Positions 4,560 through 31,961 of a DNA stretch of 32,082 nucleotides are shown one piece after another; within the stretch, counting starts at the first letter, position 1; every line of letters starts with the position of its first letter. Location: the NCBI GenBank assembly GCA_025964535.1, contig JAOPYX010000228.1, positions 1-32,082 on the forward strand, read 5' to 3'. The translations under genes were made by a program, and so were the position numbers. The notes below the pieces were generated by a model. The model made no database searches, had not been told where the DNA came from, and worked only from the letters and a program-made list of their open reading frames with translations. This DNA is from Actinomycetes bacterium. GTDB lineage: Bacteria; Actinomycetota; Thermoleophilia; Gaiellales; Gaiellaceae.

Positions 4560-4585
4560 CCCTGGCGCTCACGGCCAGAGACCTT

Positions 4586-5554: not shown

Positions 5555-5611
5555 TCGTGACCCAGCCTACCAACGGCATTTCCCGGAGGGCAATCGACAG
5601 CGGGTCCAACT

Positions 5612-6613: not shown

Positions 6614-7644
6614 GTCCGCGCCTCCGACGGGTGGTGACAGGCGACGCGGCCTTCTTCGCGCACGGCGGCCAGAGGCGGGTCGATCGCCGCGCAGTCGGCG
6701 AGGGAACGACCGACGTGGCAACGAGCACGGAACGCGCATCCGGTCGGGAGGGCGACGAGATCAGGGGGACTGCCGGGGATCGACGGCAGCGGCCCGGTCT
6801 CGAGCCGATCCGAGCGGAGCATCGCCGCCAGCAGTGCCTGGGCGTACGGGTGCTGCGGCGCCGCGAAGAGCCGTTCGGTCGACGTCTGCTCCACGAGCCG
6901 TCCGGCGTACATCACGGCGATCGTGTCGCAGAACTCGGCTACCAGAGCGAGGTTGTGCGTGATCAGGATGACCGCCGTTCGTCGTTCGGCTACGAGGCGG
7001 TCGAGGAGTCCCAGTACTTGAGCCTGGGTCGTCACGTCCAGGGCGGTGGTGGGCTCGTCGGCGATCAGGACGTCGGGCTCGTTCGCGAGCGCCATCGCGA
7101 TGACGACACGCTGACGCATGCCGCCCGAGTACTCATGTGGGTAGGAGTCCACGCGCTGCGCCGCCTTCGGCACTTCGACTTCCCGCAGCAGCTCGATCGC
7201 GCGACGGCGAGCGGCCTTGCGCGAGAGGGCGCCACCGTGCAGGCGAAGCGCCTCCCCGAGCTGGCTTCCGATCGTCTTCACCGGGTCCAACGCCTGCATC
7301 GCGTCTTGGTAGATCAGCGCGATGCGCCGCCCGCGGATGCGTTGCATGGCGCGGTCAGGAAGATGCTCGATGTTCTGCCCGGCCAACCTGACCGTTCCCG
7401 CCACCACCTTCCCCGGCGGCTCGATGAGACCGAGGATGCTGAGCGCAAGCGCCGACTTGCCGCTGCCGGACTCTCCGACGATGGCCAGCCGCTCGCCGGG
7501 ATCGAGCGCGAAGCCGACGCCGCGAACGGCCTCGACGGTGCCACGCTTGGTCACGAAGTGGGTCTGAAGCCCGTCAACGGCGAGCACCGGCCCGAGGTCA
7601 GGCCTCTCGCAACGAGCGTCCTCGACCCGCGTGCTCGCCGTCAC
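6610..7644 (-). CDS. ABC importer ATPase, OppD/DppD type
   Basis: 344 residues starting at the GTG at 7644, which overlaps the permease stop as GTGA. The reading frame stays open far upstream into the permease gene, but similarity to ATPases begins only here. Walker A is GESGSGKSA, the Q-loop is in LIYQDAMQALDP, the signature is YSGGMRQRVVIAMALA, Walker B is VLIADEP and the switch region is LITHNLAL. The C-terminal four-cysteine oligopeptide domain is present (GCAFRARC, DCAA, ACHHP). It is the first of the two ATPases and forms a heterodimer with the OppF-type subunit encoded directly downstream. It is part of the permease-permease-ATPase-ATPase core whose binding protein is encoded divergently at 9784. 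Confidence 0.95.
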   Translation of the reverse strand: MTASTRVEDARCERPDLGPVLAVDGLQTHFVTKRGTVEAVRGVGFALDPGERLAIVGESGSGKSALALSILGLIEPPGKVVAGTVRLAGQNIEHLPDRAMQRIRGRRIALIYQDAMQALDPVKTIGSQLGEALRLHGGALSRKAARRRAIELLREVEVPKAAQRVDSYPHEYSGGMRQRVVIAMALANEPDVLIADEPTTALDVTTQAQVLGLLDRLVAERRTAVILITHNLALVAEFCDTIAVMYAGRLVEQTSTERLFAAPQHPYAQALLAAMLRSDRLETGPLPSIPGSPPDLVALPTGCAFRARCHVGRSLADCAAIDPPLAAVREEGRVACHHPSEART

Positions 7645-8669
7645 TGCGCGCGCCCCAGGCGAATCCGCGGATCGAGGATGCCGTACAAGCCATCGATGAC
7701 AAGGTTCACGACCACGTACGCCACGGCCGAGAGCAGGATGAAGGCTTGCACCACGCTGTAGTCGAGGCGCTGGATCGACTGCACGACGAACTGGCCCAGC
7801 CCCGGCCAGTCGAAGACCGTCTCGACCAGAACGCTGCCGCCCAGGAGGTCGGCGAACACCAGAGCGCTCGCGGTGAGCGTCGGAAGGAACGAGTTCGGCA
7901 GGGCATGCCGCGAGAACGCCGCCCAGCGACTCATCCCCTTGCCGCGGACGACGAGCAGGAACGGCTCGCGACCCATCTCGAGAAGGCTGCTGCGCAGCAG
8001 GCGGAAGAGGAAGCCGAACGAGAAGAAGCTGAGGCAGAACGACGGTAGGGCGAGATGCCACAGCGCGTCAAAGAACGTCGCCGGCTGCAGGGCCAGCAGT
8101 GTGTCGATGGTGTACAGGCCGCTCACGCTCGCCGGAGGGTTGATCGATGGGCTGATGCGACCTTCCGGGCCCGGGAACACTCCGAGCGTGTGCGAGAACA
8201 CGAGCAGCAGAAGGAGCCCCAGCCAGAACTGCGGCAGCCCGAGTCCGGCGAAGGCGACGCCTCGGGCGATCCGGTCGAGCAGCGGTCGTGAGCGGTAGGT
8301 CACCAGCAACGCGAGCACGACGGCCGCGCTGAAGGCCCATGCGAACGAGATCAACGCGAGCTCCACCGTGGCGCCTGCGCGCGAGAGGATGATCGACCGG
8401 ACGCTCGCTCCTGCGGTGAACGAGTATCCCCAGTCGCCCTGGACGAACGCCGAGATGTAGTGCCAGTACTGCTCTGGCAGCGACTGCGCGAGGCCCAAGC
8501 TGCGGCTGAGCGCGCGGACCTGATCTGCATCGGCATGCGGCCCGAGGATCAGACGGGCCGGGTCGCTCGGCACCGCGCGCAGGACCACGAACGAGATGAT
8601 CGACGCGCCGAGGACCGCGCTGAGCGCCCCCGCGAGACGCATCGCGAAGAACCGCAAGCTCGAGCGCAT
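7641..8669 (-). CDS. ABC importer permease, OppB/DppB type
   Basis: 342 residues from the ATG at 8669, inside the ATGA shared with the preceding permease gene. An N-terminal membrane helix (about residues 10-31) leads into SDPARLILGP, the usual DppB-type start. About six hydrophobic segments follow. The cytoplasmic coupling (EAA-like) loop is GREPFLLVVRGKGMSRW near residues 235-255, and the C-terminus ends with the family-typical GILDPRIRLG. It forms the inner-membrane channel together with the DppC-type permease. Gene order here is C, B, D, F rather than the commoner B, C, D, F. The four-base overlaps on both sides imply translational coupling across the whole transporter core. Confidence 0.94.
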   Translation of the reverse strand: MRSSLRFFAMRLAGALSAVLGASIISFVVLRAVPSDPARLILGPHADADQVRALSRSLGLAQSLPEQYWHYISAFVQGDWGYSFTAGASVRSIILSRAGATVELALISFAWAFSAAVVLALLVTYRSRPLLDRIARGVAFAGLGLPQFWLGLLLLLVFSHTLGVFPGPEGRISPSINPPASVSGLYTIDTLLALQPATFFDALWHLALPSFCLSFFSFGFLFRLLRSSLLEMGREPFLLVVRGKGMSRWAAFSRHALPNSFLPTLTASALVFADLLGGSVLVETVFDWPGLGQFVVQSIQRLDYSVVQAFILLSAVAYVVVNLVIDGLYGILDPRIRLGRAQ

Positions 8670-9601
8670 CAGCGCGCGTACCCCCCGCGAGGATCGAGGA
8701 CGTCGCGGACCCTGTCGGCGAGGAGATTGGCGGCGACCACCAGCAGCATGAGACCCAGGCCGGGGCAGACTGAGATCCACCATTGGCCGGTCAGGGTGTA
8801 GGGAAGGCCGTCGGTGATCATCGCTCCCCACTCCGGTGTCGGGATCTGCGCGCCGACGCCGATGAACCCGAGGGCGGCCAACGCGACGATCGAGTAGCCG
8901 AACGCGCCGGCCGCCTGCACGAGCAGTGTCGGCATCACGTGCGGTACCACGTGGCGTCGCGCGATCCGTCCTGGGGCGGCGCCGACGGCGCGCGCTGCCT
9001 CGATGAACGGAAGCTGTGAGACGCGCAGGACCTCGCTGCGGATGAGCCGCGCGTACCAGGGGATGGTGGACAACACGAGACCGGCGCACGCGCTGACGAT
9101 GCCGACGCCGAGGCCGATCGTGATCGCCATGGCGAGGATCAACGCGGGAAACGCCAGCAGGGCGTCCATCACGCGCATCGCCACGCTGTCGACAATCCCG
9201 CGTGCCAGGCCGGCGACGAGCCCGAGGGCGCCGCCGAGCAGCGCGCCGACGAAAACCACGGTGGCGCCGGCCGAGATGGAGATTCCGGCCCCGCGGATGA
9301 ACCGCGCGAAGATGTCTCGTCCGTTGCTGTCCGTGCCCATGGGATGGGCCGTTGACGGCGCGGCGAGCGAGTCAGCGAGGTAGGTCGCTGTGGGCGAATG
9401 GCGCCAAAGCGTTGGGCCGAGAACGGCCATGATCACCAGCGCGCCCAGGATGGAGAGGGCCGCGGCGATCTGGCGATCGGTCCGGAGCAGACGTCGAGGC
9501 CACGCGCGCCCGCGGCCGTCACCGACGCGGGGGGCTCGAGCCTCGTCTCGAGGCTCCTGGGACCCAGGGCGTTGCGGGGCATCGGGCAGCGCACCGCTCA
9601 T
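8669..9601 (-). CDS. ABC importer permease, OppC/DppC type
   Basis: 310 residues from the ATG at 9601. The frame is open for 74 more codons upstream, but that part is promoter DNA facing the divergent binding-protein gene and has no family features. A proline/arginine-rich cytoplasmic N-terminus precedes the first membrane helix near residue 45. The hallmark GTDSNGRDIFARFIRG block follows, then about five more helices and the coupling loop EAARAVGAAPGRI. The C-terminus ends with VRDVLDPRGG, typical of the family. It is the first gene of the leftward operon, so the promoter must lie in 9602-9783. No strong Shine-Dalgarno is seen before the ATG; GGGAT lies about 10 bases upstream. Confidence 0.92.
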   Translation of the reverse strand: MSGALPDAPQRPGSQEPRDEARAPRVGDGRGRAWPRRLLRTDRQIAAALSILGALVIMAVLGPTLWRHSPTATYLADSLAAPSTAHPMGTDSNGRDIFARFIRGAGISISAGATVVFVGALLGGALGLVAGLARGIVDSVAMRVMDALLAFPALILAMAITIGLGVGIVSACAGLVLSTIPWYARLIRSEVLRVSQLPFIEAARAVGAAPGRIARRHVVPHVMPTLLVQAAGAFGYSIVALAALGFIGVGAQIPTPEWGAMITDGLPYTLTGQWWISVCPGLGLMLLVVAANLLADRVRDVLDPRGGYAR

Positions 9602-9663
9602 CGCCCGATGATCCCAGCGGTCGCCGCGCCCGACCACCGACGTTCCTAACGGTGAGGGCCAGC

Positions 9664-9685
9664 TCGGCTTACCCACCGAAGCCGA
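9664..9685. promoter_or_regulatory. Inverted repeat in divergent promoter region
   Basis: A perfect 7-base inverted repeat, TCGGCTT-N8-AAGCCGA, lies 62 bases before the permease start on one side and about 100 bases before the binding-protein start on the other. It could be a regulator-binding site or a transcript hairpin. No protein can be assigned to it from sequence. Confidence 0.4.
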
Positions 9686-9693
9686 AGCAGAGC

Positions 9694-9712
9694 TTGCCCT
9701 CTCTATGAGCAA
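9694..9712. promoter_or_regulatory. Candidate LysR-type dyad TTGC-N11-GCAA
   Basis: A short dyad TTGC-N11-GCAA lies within the same divergent region, 71 bases before the GTG of the binding protein. Size and symmetry are like LysR operators, and both flanking operons encode a LysR protein. Half-sites are only four bases, so chance occurrence is possible. Confidence 0.35.
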
Positions 9713-9783
9713 ATCCATCGCCCAGCCAGACACCGTCCTCTTATCGTCCCGGCGCACGACCGGCCGACTGAGGAGCGATACCC

Positions 9784-11439
9784 GTGAGAACATCAGCGAC
9801 CAGGCTCCAGGGCGACGTGCCACGCCCGCGGCGCCGACGGGCGGCAGCCTACCGTCACGTGGTAGGGCTGCTCCTGGGCAGCACTTCGGTCGTGTTCGCC
9901 GCCGGCTGCGGCGACGCCAAGACGAGCGCCACGGCAGGGAAGAGCGCCATGATCATCAACATGGTGCGAACGCCGCATTCGTTGGATCCGGCGAACCAGT
10001 GCGATGCCGCGGACCCGCTCGCCGGCAACCTCTACAGCCGACTCGTGCAGTTCGGGACCAAGCCAGGTCCGGACGGGACGCTCCAGAGCGATCAGACCAA
10101 GCTCGAGCCCGATCTGGCCCGCTCATGGGACGTCAGCCACGATGGCCGAACGTACACCTTCCACCTCCGCTCCGGCGCCAAGTTCGGCAGCGGCCGTCCT
10201 GTTGACGCCGAGGCCGTCGTCTACAACTTCGATCGCGTTCAGAAGATGGGAGTCTGCAGTGCCTTCGCGGTCAGCACAGCCGACAACGGCAATGTGCGAT
10301 CCGTGCGCGCTCTGGACCCGACGACCGTGCAGATCAAGCTTCGGCGGCCGAATTCGTCGTTGATCCGCTCGTGGGCTACGCCGTCCTTGGGGATCGTCGA
10401 CCCCAGCGTCGTGGAGGCACACGGCGGAGTGGTCGCCGGCAAGCCGAACGAGTACCTCGCGACGCACGACGCGGGTTCGGGGCCCTTCATCATCAAGCGC
10501 TACCAGCCGAACCAGAGCCTCGTGCTCGTGTCCAACCCCACGTACTACGGTCCGAAGCCGAAGACCACGCAGTTGACCGTCAACTTCGTGTCGGCGGACT
10601 CGACGCTGCAGCTGCAGGCCTCCAACGGGACGGCCGACGTGACGATCGGCCTGTCCAAGCAGGGCTACAACTCCCTGCGATCCAACTCCAAGGTGCGACG
10701 CGTCGCATACACGGCGCGGACGACCGAGCAGGTCGTGCTGAACTGGGACAAGGCGCCGTTCGACCAGGTGCTCGTGCGCCGCGCCGTGGCGACCGCCGTG
10801 CCGTACGACGCGCTGATCAGCAAGGTCACGTTTGGCCTCGGCAAGGCGTTCTACGGCCCGATCCTGCCGGGGATGCCGTTCTACAACGCGCCTTTGAGCC
10901 AGCCGCTGGCCACCGACATCGCCAAGGCGAAGGACCTCATCCAGCAGTCGGGGGTCAAGACGCCGATCCCGGTCACGCTGGTCATCGATCAAGGCAATCA
11001 GGTCCACGAGCAGCTCGCGACCCTCCTCCAGGACACCTGGAACCAGATCGGCTTGAAGGTCTCGATCCGCAAGCTCGATCAGGCGGCCTACACGGACACG
11101 CTGTTCGGGAACAAGGCCCAGGCCACGCTCCGTACCGATTTCCCATTCGTAGACGATCCTGACTATTACCTCGGCTATGACCTCCAGTGCCAGAAGGGCG
11201 CCGAGAACACCGGCCACATCTGCGTGCCGTCGATCGATCGTGCGCTCCTCCGCGCGCGGCGCGCGCTGTCGGACGGCGACAAGCAGCACGCCTACGACGA
11301 GGTGACTCGCCTCTGGCGCGACAACGCCCCGAAGGTGTTCCTGTACCTGGAGCAGGACACGGTCGTGCTGTCGCGTCGCGTCGGCAGCTTCACGTTCGAC
11401 CCGACGCTGAGCAGCTTCGCCCAGCTCGGAGCCAAGTGA
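9784..11439 (+). CDS. Solute-binding lipoprotein, peptide/nickel ABC family (SBP family 5), importer 1
   Basis: 551 residues from a GTG at 9784, chosen for the GAGGAG Shine-Dalgarno at 9770-9775 with 8 bases of spacing. An arginine-rich n-region and a hydrophobic stretch lead to the lipobox FAAGC with lipidated C42, so the mature protein is anchored on the outer face of the cytoplasmic membrane. The family 5 fold is visible from MVRTPHSLDP, through the LEPDLARSWDVSHDGRTYTF block (residues ~103-122), to the end. It is divergent from the permease/ATPase operon that lacks its own binding protein, so the two halves form one importer. Its stop overlaps the hyuA start (GTGA), tying substrate capture to the hydantoinase-like enzyme. 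Confidence 0.93.
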   Translation: MRTSATRLQGDVPRPRRRRAAAYRHVVGLLLGSTSVVFAAGCGDAKTSATAGKSAMIINMVRTPHSLDPANQCDAADPLAGNLYSRLVQFGTKPGPDGTLQSDQTKLEPDLARSWDVSHDGRTYTFHLRSGAKFGSGRPVDAEAVVYNFDRVQKMGVCSAFAVSTADNGNVRSVRALDPTTVQIKLRRPNSSLIRSWATPSLGIVDPSVVEAHGGVVAGKPNEYLATHDAGSGPFIIKRYQPNQSLVLVSNPTYYGPKPKTTQLTVNFVSADSTLQLQASNGTADVTIGLSKQGYNSLRSNSKVRRVAYTARTTEQVVLNWDKAPFDQVLVRRAVATAVPYDALISKVTFGLGKAFYGPILPGMPFYNAPLSQPLATDIAKAKDLIQQSGVKTPIPVTLVIDQGNQVHEQLATLLQDTWNQIGLKVSIRKLDQAAYTDTLFGNKAQATLRTDFPFVDDPDYYLGYDLQCQKGAENTGHICVPSIDRALLRARRALSDGDKQHAYDEVTRLWRDNAPKVFLYLEQDTVVLSRRVGSFTFDPTLSSFAQLGAK

Positions 11440-13511
11440 CGGCGCCTGCGTCGCGAAACGCCGGGTTCCGCGTCGGCCTGGACATCGGCGGGACGTTCAC
11501 CGACTTCGCGCTGCTCGACGAGCGCACGGGCCGGCTGAGCCTGCACAAGCGGCTGACCACGCCCGAGGACCCGTCTCGGGGAGCGCTGGGAGGGTTGCAG
11601 GAGCTGCTCGATCGGGAGGGTCGCGACCTGGCCGACGGCCTCGCCGTCGTCCACGCGACCACGTTGGTGACGAACGCGGTGATCGAACGACGGGGCGCGC
11701 GCACGGGCATGCTCGTCACGCGTGGGTTCCGTGACGTCCTCGAGCTGGCGCGCGAGCAGCGGTACGACATCTACGACCTCTTCCTGGAGTTCCCGCCGCC
11801 GCTCGTCCCGCGTCCCCTTCGGCGAGAGGTCGACGAGCGGATGAGTCGTGACGGAACGCCGCTCCAGGACCTGGATGTCGAGCAGCTCCTCGAGCAAGCC
11901 GAGTACCTGGTGCGGGATGGCGTCGAGGCCATCGCGGTCTGCTTCCTGCACGCGTATCGCAACCCCGACCACGAGCAGCGAGCCGCCGCCGCTCTGCGAG
12001 ACGCCTACCCGAACGTGCACGTGTGCACGTCGGCGGAGGTCGTGCCCGAGGTCGGGGAGTACGAGCGCATGAGCACCGCCGTGTGCAACGCGTACGTGCT
12101 GCCGGTCGTCGACCGGTATCTGACGCGGCTGGAGGAGGGGCTCAAGCGCCGTGGGTTCGACGGGCAGTTCCACCTCATGCACTCTGGAGGCGGACTGCTC
12201 AGCGCGACGACCGCGCGTCGCCTGCCGATCCGCCTGCTGGAGTCGGGGCCGACGGCAGGGGCGATCATGGCGGCACACGTCGGACGCATCGTCGGGGCGC
12301 CGACGCTGGTGGCCTTCGATATGGGAGGCACGACGGCGAAGATGTGCGTCATCGCGGCCGATGGTCTGACGCGTGCCCCGGAGCTGGAAGTGGCTCGCCT
12401 CGACCGCTTCAAGCGGGGATCGGGGCTCCCGATCAAGACGCAGGTCGTCGACCTCATCGAGATAGGCGCCGGCGGAGGCTCGATCGCCCAGGCGGACAGT
12501 CTCGGACTGCTCGCCGTCGGCCCGCGCAGCGCCGGCGCGTCCCCTGGGCCTGCGTGCTACGGGTTCGGGGGCACGGACGCGACGGTGACGGATGCGTGCG
12601 TCGCGCTCGGCTACGTCGACGCGGAGCGCTTCGCCGGCGGCTCGATGCCGCTCGACGCCGGCGCCGCGCTCGAGGCGATCGACCGGCTCGGCGCCACGCT
12701 CAAGATGCAGGCGAACGTCGCCGTCGGTATCCACCGGGTGGCCTGCGAGCGGATGGCCAGCGCGGCGCGCGCCCACGTCATCGAGAGCGGCCTGGATCCG
12801 CGCGCTCAGCCGCTGGTCGCCTTCGGCGGCGCCGGCCCGTTGCACGCCGTGGCAGTAGCCCGCCTTCTCGGGGCGAGCGAGGTCATCGTCCCGCCGATGT
12901 GCGGCGTGGGATCGGCCATCGGCCTGCTCGCCGCGGGCGTGAGCTTCGACTACGCCCGCTCAGCTCCTGCCTCCCTCGCCGACGTGGACTGGGACGAGGT
13001 CACCCGCAACTTCGACGAGATGGAGCACGACGCGACGGTCAACATCATCGCCGATCGACCGTTGCGGTTCGAGCGGAGCTTGGAACTGCGCCTCACCGGC
13101 CAGTCGCACGACCTGGAGGTGCCTGTTCCAGCCGGCGCTCTCAGCGTCGAGGCCGCCGACTCCGTCCAGGCGGCGTTCAGGGCCGAGTACCGGCGTCGGT
13201 ACGAGACCGAGCCGCCGGCCGCGCCACCGCTGGCGATGACGTGGCGCCTGCGTGCATCCGCCCCGGAGCCGGACCTCCGCATCGTGCCGGTGGTGGGCGA
13301 CGTCGCGCCGGCTCGCAGCCGTGCAGCCTGGTTCGAGGCGACGGGCTACGTGGAGTCGGCGGTCGTCCAGCGAGCCCAACTCCGCGCCGGCGACACGGTC
13401 GCCGGCCCCGCGCTCGTCGAGGAATCGGAGACGACGACTGTCGTCGGACCGAGCGACCGCTGCGTCGTGGATGCACATCTCAACCTGCGAATCGAAGTAG
13501 GCCAGCAATGA
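11436..13511 (+). CDS. hyuA: Hydantoinase/oxoprolinase family protein, subunit A
   Basis: 691 residues from the GTG at 11436, which overlaps the binding-protein stop as GTGA. The N-terminal Hydant_A_N region starts with GLDIGGTFTD (14-23), an actin-like ATPase phosphate loop. The second nucleotide motif FDMGGTTAK lies at about 294-302, and the family motif FGGAGPLHA at about 463-471. Length matches HyuA and AcxB-type subunits. Family members use ATP to open cyclic amides such as 5-oxoproline, hydantoin or N-methylhydantoin, or to carboxylate ketones such as acetone and acetophenone; the two chemistries cannot be told apart here. No third small subunit typical of acetone carboxylase is present, which favours ring-opening hydrolysis. 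It is co-translated with hyuB (ATGA). Confidence 0.93.
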   Translation: MTAPASRNAGFRVGLDIGGTFTDFALLDERTGRLSLHKRLTTPEDPSRGALGGLQELLDREGRDLADGLAVVHATTLVTNAVIERRGARTGMLVTRGFRDVLELAREQRYDIYDLFLEFPPPLVPRPLRREVDERMSRDGTPLQDLDVEQLLEQAEYLVRDGVEAIAVCFLHAYRNPDHEQRAAAALRDAYPNVHVCTSAEVVPEVGEYERMSTAVCNAYVLPVVDRYLTRLEEGLKRRGFDGQFHLMHSGGGLLSATTARRLPIRLLESGPTAGAIMAAHVGRIVGAPTLVAFDMGGTTAKMCVIAADGLTRAPELEVARLDRFKRGSGLPIKTQVVDLIEIGAGGGSIAQADSLGLLAVGPRSAGASPGPACYGFGGTDATVTDACVALGYVDAERFAGGSMPLDAGAALEAIDRLGATLKMQANVAVGIHRVACERMASAARAHVIESGLDPRAQPLVAFGGAGPLHAVAVARLLGASEVIVPPMCGVGSAIGLLAAGVSFDYARSAPASLADVDWDEVTRNFDEMEHDATVNIIADRPLRFERSLELRLTGQSHDLEVPVPAGALSVEAADSVQAAFRAEYRRRYETEPPAAPPLAMTWRLRASAPEPDLRIVPVVGDVAPARSRAAWFEATGYVESAVVQRAQLRAGDTVAGPALVEESETTTVVGPSDRCVVDAHLNLRIEVGQQ

Positions 13512-15226
13512 ACGACATCGATCCGGTCACGCTGAAGATCATCTGGAGCCGTCTCGTGAACGTCGCCGAGGAGAGCTGGCTGACGATCTCGCGCACGGCG
13601 TTCAGCCTCATCATCAGCGAGTCCTACGACTTCGGGTGCGAGCTGCTGGACGCGGATGGCGAGTCGCTCGCCCACTCTCCGCGCTCGATGCCGGTCTTCA
13701 ACATCACCTTGTCGGTCGTCGCGCGACGCATGCTGGAGGTGCATCCGCCCTCGACGCTGCGCGACGGCGACGTGTTGATTACCAACGACCCGTGGCTGTG
13801 CGCGGGGCACCTCTTCGACTTGGCGGTGGTGACGCCGGTCTTCCGCAACGGTCGCCTGGTGGCGTTCTCGGCCTCGGTCGCGCACTGCACGGACATCGGC
13901 GGCATCCGCGACTCGCTCGCAGCGAGAGAGATCTATGACGAGGGGTTCCAGATCCCACCGATGAAGCTGCACCGCGCCGGAGTGCCGAACGAGGACCTCC
14001 TCACGCTCTTGGCGGCCAACGTACGCGTGAGCAACTTCGTGCTCGGCGACGTCCAGGCGCAGGTCACCGCGAACCAGGTCGGTGCGCAGCGGCTGCTCGA
14101 GATCATGGACACCTACGGGCTCGACGATCTCGTCGAGGTCGGGCGTGAGATCCAGGGTCGCTCCGAACGCGTGATGCGCGACGCCATCGAGGCGCTGCCT
14201 GACGGCACCTATCGATACGACGTGAGCTGCGATGGCGCCGGCGAGCCGCTGGTGCTTCCCGTGGCGGTGACGGTGGCCGGCAGCACCATCCACGTCGACT
14301 GGGACGGTGCGCCACCGCAGGTCGAGCGAGGCGGCGTCAACTGCACGCTCAGCTACATCACTGCGGATTGCATGTACATCTTGAAGTGCCTGCTGACGCC
14401 CGAGACGCCATCGAACGCCGGCTGCTTCCGCCCGTTCAGCGTCGATGCCCCCGCTGGAAGCGTCCTGAACTGTGACTACCCCGCAGCGGTCAACATGAGG
14501 ACGATGGTCGGCTGGTACGTGGCCCCCGCTCTGATGGGTGCGCTCGCTCAAGCTGATCCCGAGCGCGTCCAGGCCTTCACCGCCTTCCCGATGTGGGTGC
14601 TCGCCTATGGCCAGGATCCTCAGAGCGGCACGTTCAGCGATCACTTCGCGTGCGCGGGTGGCCAGGGCGCGGGCGCCAGTGCCGACGGCATGAACGCGAT
14701 CCTGTTCCCGACGAGCGCCGCGAACACGGCTGTCGAGCTCTTCGAGGCCCGGACGCCGCTCGTCGTCGACTACAAGGAGCTGCGCACCGACAGCGGCGGC
14801 CGGGGACGACATCGCGGCGGGCTTGGCACGCGCTTTGCCCTGCGCGTCCTCGAGGACCACGACCGCCCGGTGCTCGTCGGCTTCACACCCAACGGAGCGC
14901 TGGTCGATCCTCCGGCCGGGCCTGAGTGCGGAGGCCGCGGGCCGCGGGTGTCCATCTCGCTGCACGACGGCGACGAGGTCGTCGCCGACTGGGCGCTGAA
15001 CGGGCTTGCCGAGTTGTGCAGCACGCGGCAGCGCCTGGTCTTCGAGCTCGGCGGCGGGAGCGGCCATGGCCCCGCCGACGCGCGTCCGCTGGACGCCATC
15101 GAAGCCGACCTGGCCAATGAATACATCAGTGTCGACGGCCTGTCGGCCTACGGATGCTCGATGGAGGAGGGCCGTGTCGTGCGGAGCTCGGTGAGGATTA
15201 GCAGCGCTGAAGGTCAGACCCAGTAG
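13508..15226 (+). CDS. hyuB: Hydantoinase/oxoprolinase family protein, subunit B
   Basis: 572 residues starting in the ATGA shared with hyuA; the much longer open frame upstream only shadows hyuA. The N-terminus DPVTLKIIW is typical of HyuB. The conserved NDPWLCAGHLFD segment (93-104) and AHCTDIGG (125-132) correspond to the metal-binding and active-site blocks of the family, usually NDPY.GG.H..D and AHH.D.GG. C-terminal segments with FGGAG-like AGGQGAGASADG and RGRHRGGLGT are also family features. It forms the catalytic partner of HyuA in a cytoplasmic ATP-dependent amidohydrolase or carboxylase complex. The tryptophan and leucine-cysteine inside the NDP motif, and the cysteine following the active-site histidine, differ from the commonest consensus and may reflect substrate choice. 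Confidence 0.93.
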   Translation: MNDIDPVTLKIIWSRLVNVAEESWLTISRTAFSLIISESYDFGCELLDADGESLAHSPRSMPVFNITLSVVARRMLEVHPPSTLRDGDVLITNDPWLCAGHLFDLAVVTPVFRNGRLVAFSASVAHCTDIGGIRDSLAAREIYDEGFQIPPMKLHRAGVPNEDLLTLLAANVRVSNFVLGDVQAQVTANQVGAQRLLEIMDTYGLDDLVEVGREIQGRSERVMRDAIEALPDGTYRYDVSCDGAGEPLVLPVAVTVAGSTIHVDWDGAPPQVERGGVNCTLSYITADCMYILKCLLTPETPSNAGCFRPFSVDAPAGSVLNCDYPAAVNMRTMVGWYVAPALMGALAQADPERVQAFTAFPMWVLAYGQDPQSGTFSDHFACAGGQGAGASADGMNAILFPTSAANTAVELFEARTPLVVDYKELRTDSGGRGRHRGGLGTRFALRVLEDHDRPVLVGFTPNGALVDPPAGPECGGRGPRVSISLHDGDEVVADWALNGLAELCSTRQRLVFELGGGSGHGPADARPLDAIEADLANEYISVDGLSAYGCSMEEGRVVRSSVRISSAEGQTQ

Positions 15227-24512: not shown

Positions 24513-26771
24513 TCAGACTGCGTCATCGGACGCGAAGCGGTCGAGCGCGTTGCCGGTGAGTCGCCCCACAGTGCTGGCGGCGACCGACAGCGCACCGGCC
24601 CATGAGATCGAGCCGGTGGCCAGGACCGCACCGCCGCCCGCACGCCGCTGCAACGTCAGATCGGCGCGAACGAGGGGGTCGATCGTGCCGCCCTGGCGGG
24701 AATTGCTGCGCATGACCTCCTCGACCGCGCGCTGGTAGAGATCGCAGAAGCCGGTCGCGCTGGCGAGCACGTGCGTCTCGCGGTCCGGCGCCAGCTCGAG
24801 GTCGGCGCGGTCGATCTCGTGTCCGGCAGCGCCACCGAGGATCAGCCCGGCGGCTCCGATCGGCTCCTCGCCGATCCCCTCGAAGAGGTACGCGACGTCG
24901 GCCCCACGGCTTCGTTCGGTCCGGACATAGGGGCGAGCGCGGCCCATACCCACGGCGGTGAAACCGACGCCGACCGCACGCTGCGGTGGGCGGCCGCGCA
25001 GGCGCCACAGGCCGCCGGGCGCACCATTGCTCGCCATGTGGCACTCGCCTGGCGCCGACGTCCAGCCGCGCGTCCCGGTGTGTCCGCGGCGCACCTCGAT
25101 GCCCGGCACGGGACCATCGACCCGGCCCGTCACCCAATACAAGCCATTGCCGCCGAGGTAGAGCGCGCGCCCGCCGGTGTCGAGGAACGTCTCGAGCGCG
25201 TCGAGCATCTCTTGTGACCAGTACTCCGGGTGGCTGCCGGTGACCACGACGCGATATGGGTCGAGCGCATCCGCGCCCTCCGCATGCAGGACGTGATCGG
25301 TGAGCACGTCAAACGGTGTTCCCCGGTCGGTCAGCCAGTGGACGATGCAGAGATCCGCCGCGAGTCCATCCGGGCAGTCGTAGCCGGCGAGGGTGTAGTC
25401 CGGACGGAGGTTCGCGATCGGGCGGCGCTCGCTGGAGAAGGCGACGCCGCTGCCGTCGGCGTGGCAGTCGTAGAGGCTGCGCAGACCGTGCCTGGCGGCG
25501 TAGGCCCCGGCGGCGTCGACCGGGCGTTCGAGCGGCTCCGGCAGGTCGCCCGAAAGGTTCGGGTTGATGTTCGCGTACGCGAGATAGCGGAACGTCGGCA
25601 TGAGCAGCGCCACACGCGCACGGGGCCGTCCGGGCCTCGGCGTGACGAATAGCGGGACGTGGTCCTCGTGCTCGCCGGCGCGCACCCGGGCCGCGTAGAC
25701 GCCACTCGGCAGTTCCGGGTCGAGCCTGACCGTGACCGCCGTCGGCCATCGGGCGTCGGAGAGATCGTCGCTATGGAAGTGAATCGCCCCGTAGTGGTCT
25801 GGGCGCAGGCGCGGGTCGGTCTCCTCGCCCGTGAAGCGCCAGCCGGTGACCGCGCGGGTGGGAGCGTTCACCAGTTGCGCGGCGCGAGTGCACGGACCGC
25901 GGTCGGTCACCCAGTCGGTGTGGGCGCCGACACGGACACCGAGATCCCAGCTCCCGAGCACCGCGACGCCGTGCTCGACGGGGGCGTGTGCCGCGAGCGC
26001 GAGCGCGAGGAGCTCGGCGTCTCCGGGTGCGGCAGCGAGCACCTTCGGCGCCTCCAGCTTGCCGTCGAAGTGCTCGACCCCGGCCGCCTCGCGCGCCGAC
26101 CAGCCGGCAGCGGCGATCGTCAGCGTCGGGCCGGCGCCGATCGGTCCCGGCGCACGCCGGCCATCCACGCGCGACTCCCAGAGGGTCGGGACGCCGCCGA
26201 CCACGGGCGCCGCGAGCAGTGTGCAGGCGCCGTCCGCGGCGAGCCGTACGGCAAGGACGTGCCAGCAGGCTCGGCTCAGAGCGGCGGTGGCCCGCAGCAC
26301 GAGCACGCCATCCACGCTCCGGTGCTCGAACACCGGAACTCCGTCGTCCAGGAGCATCTGCCAACCGTGGCCGGCGTCGGCGTCGAACGCCGCCAGCAGT
26401 CCCTGGCGCCCGACCGGACGCGTCGCCTGGACAATCGTCGTCAGCGACAGCGCCTCGGGTGCGGACCACGTGCCTGACGCCACGGCGCACGAGCCGAGCC
26501 GGAGCGGATGTGGGGCGAGCGCCAGATCGGTCGCCAGCGGCGCAACCGGCTGCTGCACAAAGCCGGGACCGGCGGGACCGCGATGCCCATGCACGAGCCG
26601 CACGAGCTCCACCGACGCAGGGGCGCCGGTCGTGCTGCTGAGCTTCAGCTCGACCGTCTCGCCCGGTCGCGCACTGAGCCGATCCCAATAGCCGACCAGT
26701 TCGTCCACAAGCGAAGTCTGCCCCGCCCGGCGCCGCACCGGGCCGCGATCGCTGAGGGTCAGGCCCAGCAT
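24513..26771 (-). CDS. N,N-dimethylformamidase large (beta) subunit-like protein
   Basis: 752 residues from the ATG at 26771; a GTG at 26708, just before the family-like ELVGYWDRLS segment, is an alternative start. The N-terminal YWDRxSxRPGE pattern, a LamG-like beta-rich middle (about 110-245) and a large C-terminal catalytic domain match DmfA2-type proteins. Known DMFase uses an iron held by two tyrosines and a glutamate; here SHPEYW (H514, E516), SLYDCHADG (Y434) and FRYLAY (Y396/Y399) fall at the expected spacing. Known enzymes hydrolyse dimethylformamide to dimethylamine and formate and need a small subunit, which is not encoded in this window. Many homologues act on unknown amides. It lies 122 bases downstream of the amidohydrolase gene and may be co-transcribed with it. 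Confidence 0.85.
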   Translation of the reverse strand: MLGLTLSDRGPVRRRAGQTSLVDELVGYWDRLSARPGETVELKLSSTTGAPASVELVRLVHGHRGPAGPGFVQQPVAPLATDLALAPHPLRLGSCAVASGTWSAPEALSLTTIVQATRPVGRQGLLAAFDADAGHGWQMLLDDGVPVFEHRSVDGVLVLRATAALSRACWHVLAVRLAADGACTLLAAPVVGGVPTLWESRVDGRRAPGPIGAGPTLTIAAAGWSAREAAGVEHFDGKLEAPKVLAAAPGDAELLALALAAHAPVEHGVAVLGSWDLGVRVGAHTDWVTDRGPCTRAAQLVNAPTRAVTGWRFTGEETDPRLRPDHYGAIHFHSDDLSDARWPTAVTVRLDPELPSGVYAARVRAGEHEDHVPLFVTPRPGRPRARVALLMPTFRYLAYANINPNLSGDLPEPLERPVDAAGAYAARHGLRSLYDCHADGSGVAFSSERRPIANLRPDYTLAGYDCPDGLAADLCIVHWLTDRGTPFDVLTDHVLHAEGADALDPYRVVVTGSHPEYWSQEMLDALETFLDTGGRALYLGGNGLYWVTGRVDGPVPGIEVRRGHTGTRGWTSAPGECHMASNGAPGGLWRLRGRPPQRAVGVGFTAVGMGRARPYVRTERSRGADVAYLFEGIGEEPIGAAGLILGGAAGHEIDRADLELAPDRETHVLASATGFCDLYQRAVEEVMRSNSRQGGTIDPLVRADLTLQRRAGGGAVLATGSISWAGALSVAASTVGRLTGNALDRFASDDAV

Positions 26772-26893: not shown

Positions 26894-28180
26894 TCACGAC
26901 GCCCGCTGGTCGGTCGCGGCCGGCGTGCAGGAGAACCGTGCGTGCGCGACGATCGTCCGTCCGCCCTGTAGCACGCCTGTCACGACGTCATCGCGATCGA
27001 ACAGTAGGCCGTCGCTCGGGTCCTCGTCGAGCAGGACCAGGTCGGCCGCCATGCCCGGCTCGATCGCGCCCCGCTCGTGGTCGACGCCGAGCAGCCGTGC
27101 GCCCTCGATCGTCGCGGCGCGCAGGCAGTCGTGCGCCGGCAGCCCGCCACGTCGCAGTGCGGCGATCTCGGTCAGGTTGCGTCCGTGCAGACTCCGGTCG
27201 ACGGCGTCGCTGCCGAGGGCGATCGACACCCCGGCGGCGTGCGCGACGCCCAGGACGTCGCGCAGATGCGGCTCGACGGCCAAGGTCTTGGCCTGGATGT
27301 GCGGTGGAACGTCGCCGGCCCGGGCGAGCCGCGCGTCGCGCTCGAGGACCGACATCGTCGGTACGAGGAACGTTCCCTGCTCGGCCATGCGGCGTGCCTG
27401 TCGTTCGGTGAGCAGCGTGCCGTGCTCGACTGACGCGACGTCTGCCTCCAGGGCGTTGTCGAGTCCCTCGCCGCCGTAGGCGTGGACCATCACGCGACGG
27501 CCGCGGATGGCCGCCTCGGCGACGGCGGTCCTGAGCTCGTCGGCGCTAAGCTCGGGTGCCAGTGGGTCGTCGTGGTCGGATCCGATGCCGCCCGTCGCGC
27601 AGAGCTTGATCCAGTCGCCCCCGGCGCGCAGGATCTGGCGCGCGACGCGCCGCATGTCGTCGACGCTGTCGACCAGGTGGCTGGGACCTCCCCGCGGTGC
27701 CACGCGTCCATCCGGTCCCAACTCGATCTCGAGGCCGGCGAGATGGCCGTCGGCGTGACCGCCGGTGCGGGAGACCATCACGATGGAGACCTGCAGGCCG
27801 GGCCCGGGGACCAACCCGTGCGCGATCCCGTCGCGCAAGCCGGCGTCGGCGCCCCCGGCGTCGCGCGCGTAGGTGACGCCCGCGTGCAGGGTGCGGCGTG
27901 CGGCGTGCGCGGCTTCAAGTGCGCGGGTGGTGTCCGAGCGGCGCAGGTTCGTCGACAGGTCGAGTGTCGAGAGCGTCAGGTGGGTGTGGCAGTCGATGAC
28001 GCCCGGCAGCGCAAAGACGCCGGCCATGTCGATTTCGGTCGCGCCGTCGCTGATGCTCAGATGACGGCCGACGTCTTCGATGCGCCCATCGCGCAGGCAG
28101 ACATCGAGCGGGCCGTCGACATGACCGCTGCGGGTGACGATGCTCAGATCACGCAAGGCCAGCGGAGGCGATGACGACAT
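26894..28180 (-). CDS. Metal-dependent amidohydrolase, copy 2
   Basis: 428 residues. It is a strong paralogue of the 3270-4559 gene along its entire length, with blocks such as RTGGHADGHL, VMVHAYGGEGLDNAL and RGGLPAHDCLRAATIEGA identical. Metal and catalytic residues are complete: H65/H67 (DCHTH), K192 (WIKLCATG), H233 (VHAYGG), H253 (VEHGT) and D325 (LGSDA). The C-terminus is about 12 residues longer than copy 1. It cleaves amide or peptide bonds of an unknown small substrate. It faces the second ABC importer across the 28181-28440 promoter region and leads into the DMFase-like gene, so copy 2 probably has its own transport partner and its own induction signal. Confidence 0.93.
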   Translation of the reverse strand: MSSSPPLALRDLSIVTRSGHVDGPLDVCLRDGRIEDVGRHLSISDGATEIDMAGVFALPGVIDCHTHLTLSTLDLSTNLRRSDTTRALEAAHAARRTLHAGVTYARDAGGADAGLRDGIAHGLVPGPGLQVSIVMVSRTGGHADGHLAGLEIELGPDGRVAPRGGPSHLVDSVDDMRRVARQILRAGGDWIKLCATGGIGSDHDDPLAPELSADELRTAVAEAAIRGRRVMVHAYGGEGLDNALEADVASVEHGTLLTERQARRMAEQGTFLVPTMSVLERDARLARAGDVPPHIQAKTLAVEPHLRDVLGVAHAAGVSIALGSDAVDRSLHGRNLTEIAALRRGGLPAHDCLRAATIEGARLLGVDHERGAIEPGMAADLVLLDEDPSDGLLFDRDDVVTGVLQGGRTIVAHARFSCTPAATDQRAS

Positions 28181-28220
28181 GCGACGATTATGGCCCGCGG
28201 CGATGGGGCGTCCCGCACGA

Positions 28221-28243
28221 TTGCTGGGCGCGACCCGTAGCAG
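28221..28243. promoter_or_regulatory. Candidate operator half-sites TTGCT-N13-AGCAG
   Basis: In the 260-base divergent region between amidohydrolase 2 and importer 2, TTGCT-N13-AGCAG repeats the half-sites and spacing seen at 18296-18318, with one outer base changed. The same region also holds the palindromes CTTCA-T-TGAAG (28314-28324) and GAGATCTC (28324-28331). The site is 41 bases from the amidohydrolase start and about 200 bases from the binding-protein start. Confidence 0.38.
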
Positions 28244-28440
28244 GACCGCGCGGCGATAACGTTCGCACCGGCGACGGCGGCCGGCGCGTGTCGCGTCCTG
28301 CGCGCTGCTGTGGCTTCATTGAAGAGATCTCGGCAACTGGGATGTCGGACCTCGTGAGACGCTTCGCCCATCAGGCCAAGCGGCTCATACGCGCCGAGTC
28401 GGACGCCCATAACAACTGCCACCCCGGGCCGGGAGAACTT

Positions 28441-30111
28441 ATGAATGAGTACCACACGCGGTTCACGCGGACGACATCGCAGAGCCACGGCTCACGCCTA
28501 GCACTTGTCGTGACCGTCGTCGCTGTGCTCGCCCTGGGTGGGTGTGGTGGTGGGTCCTCGCCCTCGTCGCCGACCACGACCCAGTCCGTGGTGCGCGCAT
28601 TGCCGGCGTCGACCAAGGACGTCGACACGATTACCTGGGATCTCCCGCATGGAGAGCCCGGCTCCATCGACATCTTGAATGGCTACGACTACAGCCCGGA
28701 TCTCGTCATCGCTAACCTCTGCGACTCCCTCGACCGGTTGAACCCCGACTTCACCGTCGCGCCGGGCCTTGCCGTCTCTCGCTCACAGCCCGACCCTCTG
28801 ACGCTGATCTACAAGATCCGTAGCGGGGTGAACTTCTGGGACGGCAAGCCGCTGACCAACGTCGACGTGGCATGGAGCCTGGGTCGCAACCTCAGTCCGG
28901 ACGCCCCGTCGCACTTCCTATACGCGAGTGTCAAGTCGATCAAGGCGACCGCGAACAACACCGTCACGATTCGATTCAGCAAGCCCGACGAGCTGTTCGC
29001 GAAGGAGATGTTCTCCTCGGTCGGCGCGGTGATGGAGAAGGCCTTCTCCATCAAGCAAGGCAAGAGCCTCGGTACGGCCAAGGGCAGCATCATGTGCAGC
29101 GGTCCGTTCAAGCTCGCAAACTGGACCCCGGGCTCGAGCATGACCCTGGTTCGCAACGAGGCCTACTGGGACCCTCAGTGGAAGGCGCGGTCCAGGATGA
29201 TCAAGCTCAAGTTCATCACCGTGTCCAGCCCGCTCACCCAGGGCCTGAAGTCCGGCGAGCTCGACGGTGCGTATGAGATCCCGCCGACGTCGATCACCTC
29301 GCTGCAGTCCATCTCGACCGGCAAGCTCTACTACGGTCCCTCGCATCAGTACCTCGCGCTGTCGGTCGTCCGGCCCGACGGTCCGTTGGCCAGCACGAAG
29401 CTTCGGGACGCCGTCTTGAAGGCGATCGATCGGCCGGCCCTGGCTTCCTCGGTGTTCCATGGCGCGGCACGCGCGAACTACACGGCGCTGGCGAGCACTT
29501 CGTGGGATCCCAGCGCTCTGCCGGCGTACGAGGCTGCCTACAAGCAGTTCGAGACCGCCAACTCGTACGACACCACTGCTGCGAAGCAGCTCGTGAAGGA
29601 GAGCGGCTACTCAGGGCACACGTTGAGCCTGGTCACGCTCTCGGGTGACGACACGCAGTCAGCGGTGGGGCAGTTCATCCAGCAGCAGGCCGCCAGCATC
29701 GGCGTCAAGGTCAAGATCAATGCCCTGCAGCCGCTCGAGTACTCCAATCTCGCCTTCACCGCGGCGACCCGCAAGAGCAACGATCTGCTGCTGTCCTCGA
29801 ACTACAACCAGTCCGCCGACCCGCTCGAGCAGCTTTCGTTCAACTACCTCCCCGGTTCGCCGTTCAACTACACGAACTACAGCAACCCGGTGGTGACCAC
29901 CACCCTGAAGAAGGGGACGACCATCACCGAGAACGCGCGCCGCGCACAGGCGGTCATCGCCGCGCAAGCGGTGTACGAGAAGGATTACAAGTCAAGCGCA
30001 CTGGTCACAACGGACGAGGTGAGTTTCGTCAACAAGCGGCTCACCGGGGCCATCACCTCCTTCGCGTACATGTTTACCCCGTCGCTCGCCAAGCTCGGCG
30101 CCGCGGGCTGA
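28441..30111 (+). CDS. Solute-binding lipoprotein, peptide/nickel ABC family (SBP family 5), importer 2
   Basis: 556 residues from the ATG at 28441, with GGAG at 28432-28435 five bases upstream. The frame is open for 90 codons before this but only across promoter DNA. A signal peptide with a hydrophobic core ends in the lipobox LGGC (C35), followed by a glycine/serine-rich linker. The SBP family 5 signature is visible in the LNPDFTVAPGLAVS region and in GVNFWDGKPLTNVDV. It resembles importer 1's binding protein in fold but not closely in sequence, so it probably binds a different ligand. It is the first gene of a binding protein-permease-permease-ATPase operon. Confidence 0.93.
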   Translation: MNEYHTRFTRTTSQSHGSRLALVVTVVAVLALGGCGGGSSPSSPTTTQSVVRALPASTKDVDTITWDLPHGEPGSIDILNGYDYSPDLVIANLCDSLDRLNPDFTVAPGLAVSRSQPDPLTLIYKIRSGVNFWDGKPLTNVDVAWSLGRNLSPDAPSHFLYASVKSIKATANNTVTIRFSKPDELFAKEMFSSVGAVMEKAFSIKQGKSLGTAKGSIMCSGPFKLANWTPGSSMTLVRNEAYWDPQWKARSRMIKLKFITVSSPLTQGLKSGELDGAYEIPPTSITSLQSISTGKLYYGPSHQYLALSVVRPDGPLASTKLRDAVLKAIDRPALASSVFHGAARANYTALASTSWDPSALPAYEAAYKQFETANSYDTTAAKQLVKESGYSGHTLSLVTLSGDDTQSAVGQFIQQQAASIGVKVKINALQPLEYSNLAFTAATRKSNDLLLSSNYNQSADPLEQLSFNYLPGSPFNYTNYSNPVVTTTLKKGTTITENARRAQAVIAAQAVYEKDYKSSALVTTDEVSFVNKRLTGAITSFAYMFTPSLAKLGAAG

Positions 30112-30120
30112 GACGCGCCC

Positions 30121-31101
30121 ATGATCGTGGCGATGGGAGCGCAGCCTGCCCGGTCTCGCCATCTCGTGATGGCGAACCGGTGGCTGTTCGGTCCGCTTCT
30201 CACCGTTCTCGTGTCGTCTTTCGTGATCTTCGTGGCGCTCTCGGGTGCCCCTGGTGATCCGGCGGTGCGCCTGCTGGGCGGCCACCCGACCGAGATAGCG
30301 TTGACGGCGGAACGACATCGGCTGGGGCTAGATCGATCTATTCTGGTTCGATACTGGGACTGGTTGACCGGTGCCGCGCACGGAGACTTCGGCACCTCGA
30401 TCACCTACCGAACCGACGTCGCTGGGCTCCTCGAGCCCCGGATCGTGACGACGCTGCTGTTGACGTTGATGGCCGGTCTGCTCATCGTGGTCTTCGGCAT
30501 CGGCATCGGCATCGTGGGCGCCGTCTTCCGGCCGGCGGGGACTGGCGTCACCTCGTTGACCTCGGTCGGGATCGCCGTGCCGGCCTATGTCGCGGCGCTC
30601 GTCCTCGTCAACGTCTTTGCTCTGAAGCTAGGGTGGTTTCCCGCGATCGGCGGTGGTCAAGGCTTGGCCGATCGGATCTGGCACCTGACGTTGCCGGCGA
30701 TCTCCTTGGCCATCGGATACGCCGCCTACGTCGGCCAGGTCACGCAGAGCGCGTTGAGAGCCGAGCTGGGTGCCGAGCACGTCCAATCGGCCCGTGGACG
30801 AGGCATTCCCGCATGGTCGACGTTCCGGCGGCATGTCCTCCGAAATGCCGCGGCACCGATCATCACCGTCTCCGGGTTGTCGTTGGCGGCGCTGGTCGCC
30901 GGAGCGGTCGTCGTCGAGAGCGCATTCGGCATCGATGGCATCGGCTCGTTCCTCGTCACCAGCGTGTCGGCCAAGGACTACAACGTCGTCCTGGCGATCA
31001 GCCTGCTGTTGGTCGTCGTGTTCGTCGTGGTGAACACCCTCGTCGACGCGGTCAACATCGTCCTGGATCCCCGAGCGCGGACGATGCAGGACCGGCCATG
31101 A
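30121..31101 (+). CDS. ABC importer 2 permease, OppB/DppB type
   Basis: 326 residues from the ATG at 30121, nine bases after the binding-protein stop; an in-frame ATG at 30133 or 30169 (MANRWLF) could also start it, since no clear Shine-Dalgarno precedes the first. About six membrane segments are present, the first at roughly residues 22-42 followed by GAPGDPAVRLLGG. The cytoplasmic coupling loop is AEHVQSARGRGIPAWSTFRRH near residues 219-239, and the C-terminus ends with NIVLDPRARTM. It forms the channel with the DppC-type permease that follows, with which it shares an ATGA overlap. Confidence 0.93.
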   Translation: MIVAMGAQPARSRHLVMANRWLFGPLLTVLVSSFVIFVALSGAPGDPAVRLLGGHPTEIALTAERHRLGLDRSILVRYWDWLTGAAHGDFGTSITYRTDVAGLLEPRIVTTLLLTLMAGLLIVVFGIGIGIVGAVFRPAGTGVTSLTSVGIAVPAYVAALVLVNVFALKLGWFPAIGGGQGLADRIWHLTLPAISLAIGYAAYVGQVTQSALRAELGAEHVQSARGRGIPAWSTFRRHVLRNAAAPIITVSGLSLAALVAGAVVVESAFGIDGIGSFLVTSVSAKDYNVVLAISLLLVVVFVVVNTLVDAVNIVLDPRARTMQDRP

Positions 31102-31961
31102 TCGCCACGCTTCCGCAGAGCGTTCGCCTGAGGCTTCGGCACAGGGCACGAACGCGATGGCGAGATCCCGTGCTCATTGTCGCCGCGCTGGTCGGCGTCG
31201 GGCTCGTCGTGATGGTCATCGCCGCGCCATGGCTCGCGCCTGAGGCGCCTCAGCAGACGAACATCCTTGCCCCCAACGCGCCCGCGTCGGCCCAGCACCT
31301 GCTCGGCACCGACGCGCTCGGCCGCGACCTGCTGAGCCGCCTCATGTACGGCGGACGTCTGAGCCTGCTGGCGCCGGCGCTCGTCGTCGTCATCGCGACG
31401 ACCGTGGGCACTGCGCTCGCGGTGTCGGCCGCTTGGTTCGGTGGGGCGTTCGACTCCTCCGTCACCCGGGTGATGAACATCCTGTTCTCCTTCCCGAGCC
31501 TGATCCTGGCGGTGCTCGCGGTCGCGGCATTCGGCTCGGGCGTCGTGGCACCGGTTCTCGCTCTGTCGGTCGCGTACATCCCGTACGTCGGCCGCGTCGC
31601 ACGATCGTTGGCCTTGCGGGAGCGGAACCTGCCCTACGTCGAAGCGCTGGTGCTGGCCGGGGTGCCGACGTGGAAGATCTGTGCCGGCCACATCACCGCA
31701 AACCTCCTGCCGGTCATCCGCGCGCAGGCGCTCATCGCTTTCGGCTCGGCGCTGGTGGACTTCGGCGCGATCTCCTTCCTGGGGCTGGGCGTGCAGCCGC
31801 CGACGGCCGAGTGGGGGTTGATGGTCGCCGACGGGCGCAGCGCGCTGCTCAGCGGCACTCCCCAGGAGTCGCTGTACGCTGGCGGCTTCATCGTCCTGAC
31901 CGTCGTCGCGTTGAACGTCGTCGGGGAACGGCTGGCAGCTCGAGCGGAGATGTCGCGATGA
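31098..31961 (+). CDS. ABC importer 2 permease, OppC/DppC type
   Basis: 287 residues from the ATG at 31098 inside the ATGA shared with the preceding permease; upstream open frame is a shadow of that gene. A basic N-terminus and first membrane helix (about 26-46) precede the hallmark GTDALGRDLLSRLMYGG. The coupling loop is VEALVLAGVPTWKI, and the SFLGLGVQPPTAEWG segment near residues 228-242 is typical of DppC. Around five further membrane segments follow. It ends in another ATGA with the ATPase gene, so the transporter genes are translated as a block in the order SBP-B-C-D. Confidence 0.94.
   Translation: MIATLPQSVRLRLRHRARTRWRDPVLIVAALVGVGLVVMVIAAPWLAPEAPQQTNILAPNAPASAQHLLGTDALGRDLLSRLMYGGRLSLLAPALVVVIATTVGTALAVSAAWFGGAFDSSVTRVMNILFSFPSLILAVLAVAAFGSGVVAPVLALSVAYIPYVGRVARSLALRERNLPYVEALVLAGVPTWKICAGHITANLLPVIRAQALIAFGSALVDFGAISFLGLGVQPPTAEWGLMVADGRSALLSGTPQESLYAGGFIVLTVVALNVVGERLAARAEMSR

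Follow-up and report, generated by a model that had tools for sequence, protein, structure and literature searches.

The DMFase-like gene and its neighbors

The window (the whole stretch of DNA that was analyzed, 32,082 nucleotides) contains an open reading frame on the minus strand that runs from ATG to stop and encodes a protein resembling the large subunit of dimethylformamidase (DMFase). This gene and its neighbors are listed below; the names of domains I to III are those of PMC7686228.

24513 to 26771, minus strand: DMFase-large-subunit-like protein, 752 residues; Ig-like domain I, pentraxin-like domain II, ThuA/GATase-like domain III
26894 to 28180, minus strand: amidohydrolase (PF01979, E 2.4e-44), directly upstream; related to the Xaa-Pro dipeptidase model NF051886, below its cut-off
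28171 to 30111, plus strand: SBP_bac_5, substrate-binding protein of the Opp/Dpp/Nik type, divergent from the amidohydrolase
30121 to 31101, plus strand: importer permease 1 (BPD_transp_1)
30633 to 31961, plus strand: open reading frame with importer permease 2 (BPD_transp_1 at residues 259-435)

The protein scores 271.4 bits against the Pfam model DMFA2_C (PF20254), whose curated cut-off is 27, and its residues 26-750 match 6lvb_A in a phmmer search (E 1.8e-103). Judged by these scores, the match to the DMFase family is far above chance, and they bear out the large-subunit layout proposed in the initial annotation. A sequence match was also found to 8huy_A (E 3e-93). The solved structures matched by sequence are of two kinds only, the Paracoccus DMFase large subunit and an N-acetyl-(R)-beta-phenylalanine acylase (8HUY), each 33% identical to the window protein. 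Residues 1-22 have a pLDDT under 50 in the predicted structure, and translation may in fact begin slightly downstream of the start of the open reading frame.

The amidohydrolase neighbor and its importer, both named in the initial annotation, are present: the amidohydrolase lies on the same strand as the DMFase-like gene, and the binding protein and two permeases run divergently from it. The true start of permease 2 is probably downstream of position 30633. No ATPase of this importer was found on the contig, whose end (32082) cuts the importer off. The contig also encodes an aldehyde dehydrogenase, an ArgE/DapE-type deacylase, an M24 peptidase-like protein, a DAO-family oxidase, and PLP enzymes. 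Positions 3270-15226 of the window contain another amidohydrolase, similar in type to the first, LysR, a complete Opp-type importer, and HyuA/HyuB, which are caprolactamase/hydantoinase-like and score below the equivalog cut-offs; this is a second amide-catabolism block on the contig. We infer that the contig serves the breakdown of amides or peptide-like compounds.

Predicted fold and active site

An AlphaFold2 model of the protein (48 sequences) has a pLDDT of 90.7 and a pTM of 0.92. Compared with 6lvb_A, it has the three-domain fold of the large subunit (VIA Z 53.5, rmsd 2.3 Å over 722 residues); the comparison with 8huy_B gave a Z of 51.7. DMFase and the acylase are the only whole-chain matches among those listed from the PDB. 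The other matches are to pentraxin and laminin-G folds for domain II and include one ThuA-like protein for domain III.

In Paracoccus DMFase, the iron ligands are Y399, Y440, and E521, and mutants at H519, N547, and E657 are inactive (PMC7686228). We read the corresponding columns from an 87-row alignment, in which L034 (partial) and L077 account for the gaps at the six catalytic columns. All of the following lie on the minus strand:

25575 to 25577, minus strand: Y399, predicted iron ligand, equivalent to DMFase Y399; Y in 86 of 87 rows, gap in the remaining one
25470 to 25472, minus strand: Y434, predicted iron ligand, equivalent to DMFase Y440; Y in 85 of 87 rows, two gaps
25224 to 25226, minus strand: E516, predicted iron ligand, equivalent to DMFase E521; E in 85 of 87 rows, two gaps
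25230 to 25232, minus strand: H514, catalytic histidine by alignment, equivalent to DMFase H519; H in 85 of 87 rows, two gaps
25146 to 25148, minus strand: N542, oxyanion residue by alignment, equivalent to DMFase N547; N in 85 of 87 rows, two gaps
24816 to 24818, minus strand: E652, proposed general base, equivalent to DMFase E657; E in 85 of 87 rows, two gaps
25587 to 25589, minus strand: R395, at the position of DMFase S395, near the iron; the sole Arg in its column among 87 rows

Thus, all six iron-ligand and catalytic residues of DMFase are kept, and each column has the same letter in every row that covers it. The three motifs on which the initial annotation relied occur in the translated sequence and in the alignment as F394-R-Y-L-A-Y399, S432-L-Y434-D, and S513-H514-P-E516-Y-W, and the two-tyrosine, one-glutamate site that it expected is conserved as Y399, Y434, and E516. 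Convergence of these three residues, for which a structural comparison with Paracoccus DMFase had been proposed, is favored indirectly by the superposition of the model on 6LVB and by the conserved positions. An orphan or decayed gene was ruled out, because all domains and all catalytic residues are kept.

Two substitutions set the predicted pocket apart from that of DMFase. R395 replaces Ser or Thr and is peculiar to the window protein; in the model it lies in a predicted helix four residues before the ligand Y399, and for this reason it may face the site, where it may contact a charged group. The other is R688, which replaces DMFase F693, a residue that narrows the DMFase pocket (PMC7686228).

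The same and related genomes also encode distant DMFA2_C proteins that are shorter and have HDEYW instead of HPEYW (L023 at G000:C134, L008, L010, and L014). At the DMFase positions, these proteins retain Tyr, Tyr, Glu, His, Asn, and Glu, and the superfamily as a whole may therefore share the site; the His and one Glu are not an independent result, because these four were selected from 18 loci by an H-x-E-Y-like pattern.

The small subunit in the genome and among relatives

As the initial annotation had noted, no small subunit is encoded nearby: a hidden Markov model (HMM) built from relatives gave no match at E 0.01 among window open reading frames of at least 40 residues. The gap between the DMFase-like gene and its upstream neighbor is 122 bases, which leaves no room for a small-subunit gene directly upstream. 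This HMM was grown from a domain upstream of the large-subunit gene in L003 that matches the DMFase small subunit 6lvb_B (E 2e-12), and it was applied to 82 loci, namely L003, L004, and the 80 top-ranking members, by similarity to the query, of a set of at least 583 relatives. Because of this ranking, the fractions given here describe the sample and are not family-wide. A small-subunit gene lies directly upstream, on the same strand and within about 120 bases, in 32 of the 82 loci; it was not found upstream in 48, and two have too little upstream sequence. Two DMFase-large-like genes stand side by side in L028:6562-11226 (divergent) and in L060:398-5948 (tandem).

A branch with an SH-aLRT support of 100 divides a phylogenetic tree of 87 rows into sides of 49 and 38 rows, and all 32 rows with a small subunit fall on the 49-row side. 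The window protein is among the 38 rows on the opposite side, 36 of which lack the small subunit and two of which are undecided. The same split was obtained with a support of 99 in a second tree of 86 rows, for which five nearer relatives were added and six long or partial rows (L073, L071, L034, L077, L028b, and L060b) were removed. A long-branch artefact joining the window protein to L073 was rejected, since the placement did not change in this second tree. Three changes of small-subunit state are needed on the tree, which is unrooted. The 8HUY acylase belongs to a group of 11 rows without the small subunit, where it groups with L087; this group is nested within the 49-row side, opposite the window protein. 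Its single-chain state is therefore independent, because its branch lies among small-subunit-bearing enzymes.

On the one hand, the term "orphan" had implied that something expected was missing. On the other hand, the window protein sits within a large branch devoid of the small subunit, and a single-chain member of the family, 8HUY, is already in the PDB. Thus, the absence is normal for its kind, and the single-chain reading first proposed for the gene gains support from both the branch and the precedent.

We then extended the comparison to whole genomes with a 32-row small-subunit profile. It gave matches at 1e-42 and 1e-38 in the positive-control genomes and none at E 1 in the genome of the window, whose assembly is 76.6% complete, so that genome-wide absence is unproven. 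No small subunit was found at E 0.001 in 31 of the 35 genomes (completeness not given) behind loci on the window protein's side of the tree; three of the 31 gave weak matches, with E from 0.015 to 0.96. The remaining four genomes contain six small subunits, each beside its own large-subunit gene. All 10 small-subunit loci checked in the genome-wide test lie directly upstream of their own large-subunit gene (four genes are shared with the 82-locus set). Since the small subunits found adjoin their own large-subunit genes, nothing suggests one acting in trans for the branch of the window protein. A small subunit hidden inside the chain was also considered and rejected: the side without it has no extra insert, and the two length differences seen relative to the side that bears it are short and in the direction opposite to an insert.

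One alignment column, that of DMFase W473, follows the small subunit. Trp is found there in 31 of the 32 covered rows that have a small subunit and in 8 of the 51 that lack it, among which Arg (28) or His (10) prevails; the window protein has Asp (D468) where relatives lacking the small subunit mostly have Arg or His. Among loci fetched later, L120, which has a small subunit, has Trp, and L119, L122, and L123 (His) and L124 (Arg) have none in the fetched stretches. With three independent pairs on the tree, too few to test, this link is only a lead.

The suggestion that the enzyme is coupled to an importer is supported by two relatives in which the DMFase-like gene closes a complete Opp/Dpp operon. 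In L035, it is the last gene after a binding protein, two permeases, and two ATPases; in L124, its frame opens directly after the stop of the last ATPase open reading frame. Opp genes are also near the DMFase-like gene in L122 and L123. Among the 80 top-ranking of at least 583 relatives, an Opp binding protein was found in 8 of 35 loci on the window protein's side (four of them from Caldilineaceae) and in 0 of 45 others. The corresponding counts are 8 of 48 loci without the small subunit and 0 of 30 with it (Fisher p 0.02); across three independent pairs, the expected direction occurred too rarely, and an association with the small-subunit state therefore lacks phylogenetically independent support.

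L043:7494-8981 and L083:7489-8973, from two close relatives placed on a different branch of the tree, each encode a related amidohydrolase directly upstream of a DMFase-like gene that lacks a small subunit. As a conserved partner the amidohydrolase was rejected: among the 80 top-ranking of at least 583 relatives it is directly upstream only in these two and elsewhere in the fetched flanks in seven further loci.

In 7 of the 32 small-subunit loci, a BPD_transp_2 (branched-chain-type) importer permease carries the small-subunit domain as an in-frame fusion at its C terminus. The fused genes, listed here, lie directly upstream of the large-subunit gene:

L003:2-1474, permease/small-subunit fusion
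L034:1303-2937, permease/small-subunit fusion
L061:7368-8951, permease/small-subunit fusion
L081:7328-8965, permease/small-subunit fusion
L089:7308-8960, permease/small-subunit fusion
L093:7411-8979, permease/small-subunit fusion
L097:6813-8948, permease/small-subunit fusion

Two further long open reading frames, in L074 and L092, show no Pfam domain. The fusion suggests that the enzyme docks on the importer, and it is more unusual than the window gene itself.

A probable single-chain amidase and its alternatives

The window protein shares with the DMFase of Paracoccus sp. DMF (6LVB; EC 3.5.1.56) the whole-chain fold, the three iron ligands, and the catalytic H, N, and E. It differs in sequence (33% identity), in its side of the family tree, in having no small subunit on the contig, and in having Arg in place of both F693 and S395. 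With the N-acetyl-(R)-beta-phenylalanine acylase (8HUY, 8I59, and 8I5A), which acts on an N-acyl amino acid going by its deposited name, it shares the fold, the six residues, and the single-chain type, for which 8HUY is a solved precedent; unlike the window protein, that acylase belongs to a separate branch, nested among small-subunit-bearing enzymes. The acetamiprid amidase AceAB of Pigmentiphaga sp. D-2 is likewise DMFase-related, acts on a large substrate, and, in contrast, has two subunits; no DMF activity is reported for it in the available part of the source (PMC11573777).

We put at roughly 0.7 the probability that the window gene encodes a single-chain DMFase-like metal amidase. In domain III, Y399, Y434, and E516 would bind a mononuclear metal center, most likely Fe(III), which would serve as the Lewis acid toward the amide carbonyl and a bound water. 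E652 would be the base, N542 the oxyanion residue, and H514 essential, as proposed for Paracoccus DMFase. The enzyme would need no chain of another kind and would probably be a homodimer. Its substrate would be an N-substituted amide taken up through an Opp/Dpp-type importer, and what it releases would probably pass to the co-directional amidohydrolase.

Two phenolates and a carboxylate favor Fe(III), and the ligands and second-shell residues of the window protein are all those of the iron enzyme. Both points speak against a single-chain amidase that uses the same mechanism with another metal, such as zinc, which we regard as unlikely, even though sequence does not fix the metal and the identification of iron by X-ray fluorescence covers Paracoccus DMFase only (PMC7686228).

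Independence from a second chain cannot be assumed from sequence, because the Paracoccus large subunit expressed without the small subunit is inactive (PMC7686228). This, together with the incomplete assembly, would fit a two-subunit enzyme of the DMFase or AceAB type with its small-subunit gene in the unsequenced quarter of the genome. Such an enzyme is improbable: partner small subunits lie directly upstream in 32 of 32 and in 10 of 10 loci (four shared), the window gene is on the side of the tree where none was seen, and the Trp typical of small-subunit rows (31 of 32) is Asp in its product. Equally improbable is a formamidase or DMF-type solvent hydrolase restricted to small substrates, which would fit the DMFase-like fold and catalytic residues, since the protein is off the DMFase side of the tree, has Arg in place of the pocket-narrowing F693 (PMC7686228), and has, like some relatives, an Opp/Dpp-type importer beside its gene, implying a solute that needs import, while AceAB, close to DMFase, acts on a large substrate according to the part of the source available (PMC11573777).

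A broader and doubtful idea is that the DMFase family is organized around import. One side would use the small subunit as an adaptor that docks the enzyme on its importer and that in some cases is fused to a permease of the branched-chain type. The side of the window gene, which would have lost the small subunit or never had it, would use Opp/Dpp importers and form an undescribed class of stand-alone two-Tyr, one-Glu metal amidases, and R395 of the window protein, by the iron, would anchor the carboxylate of an N-acyl amino-acid-like substrate. In the open-licence PMC literature, we found no paper on 8HUY, on DMFases without the small subunit or their broad separate branch, or on the permease fusion seen at 7 of 32 loci.

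The best-described member of the family in the literature consulted is DMFase with its two subunits, of which the large one shows no activity by itself. The broad branch without the small subunit provides natural proteins for asking what that subunit does, whether the strained two-Tyr, one-Glu iron site works without it, and to which amides these enzymes were adapted before synthetic solvents existed. For mutation, the Trp/Arg column at DMFase 473 offers a concrete site.
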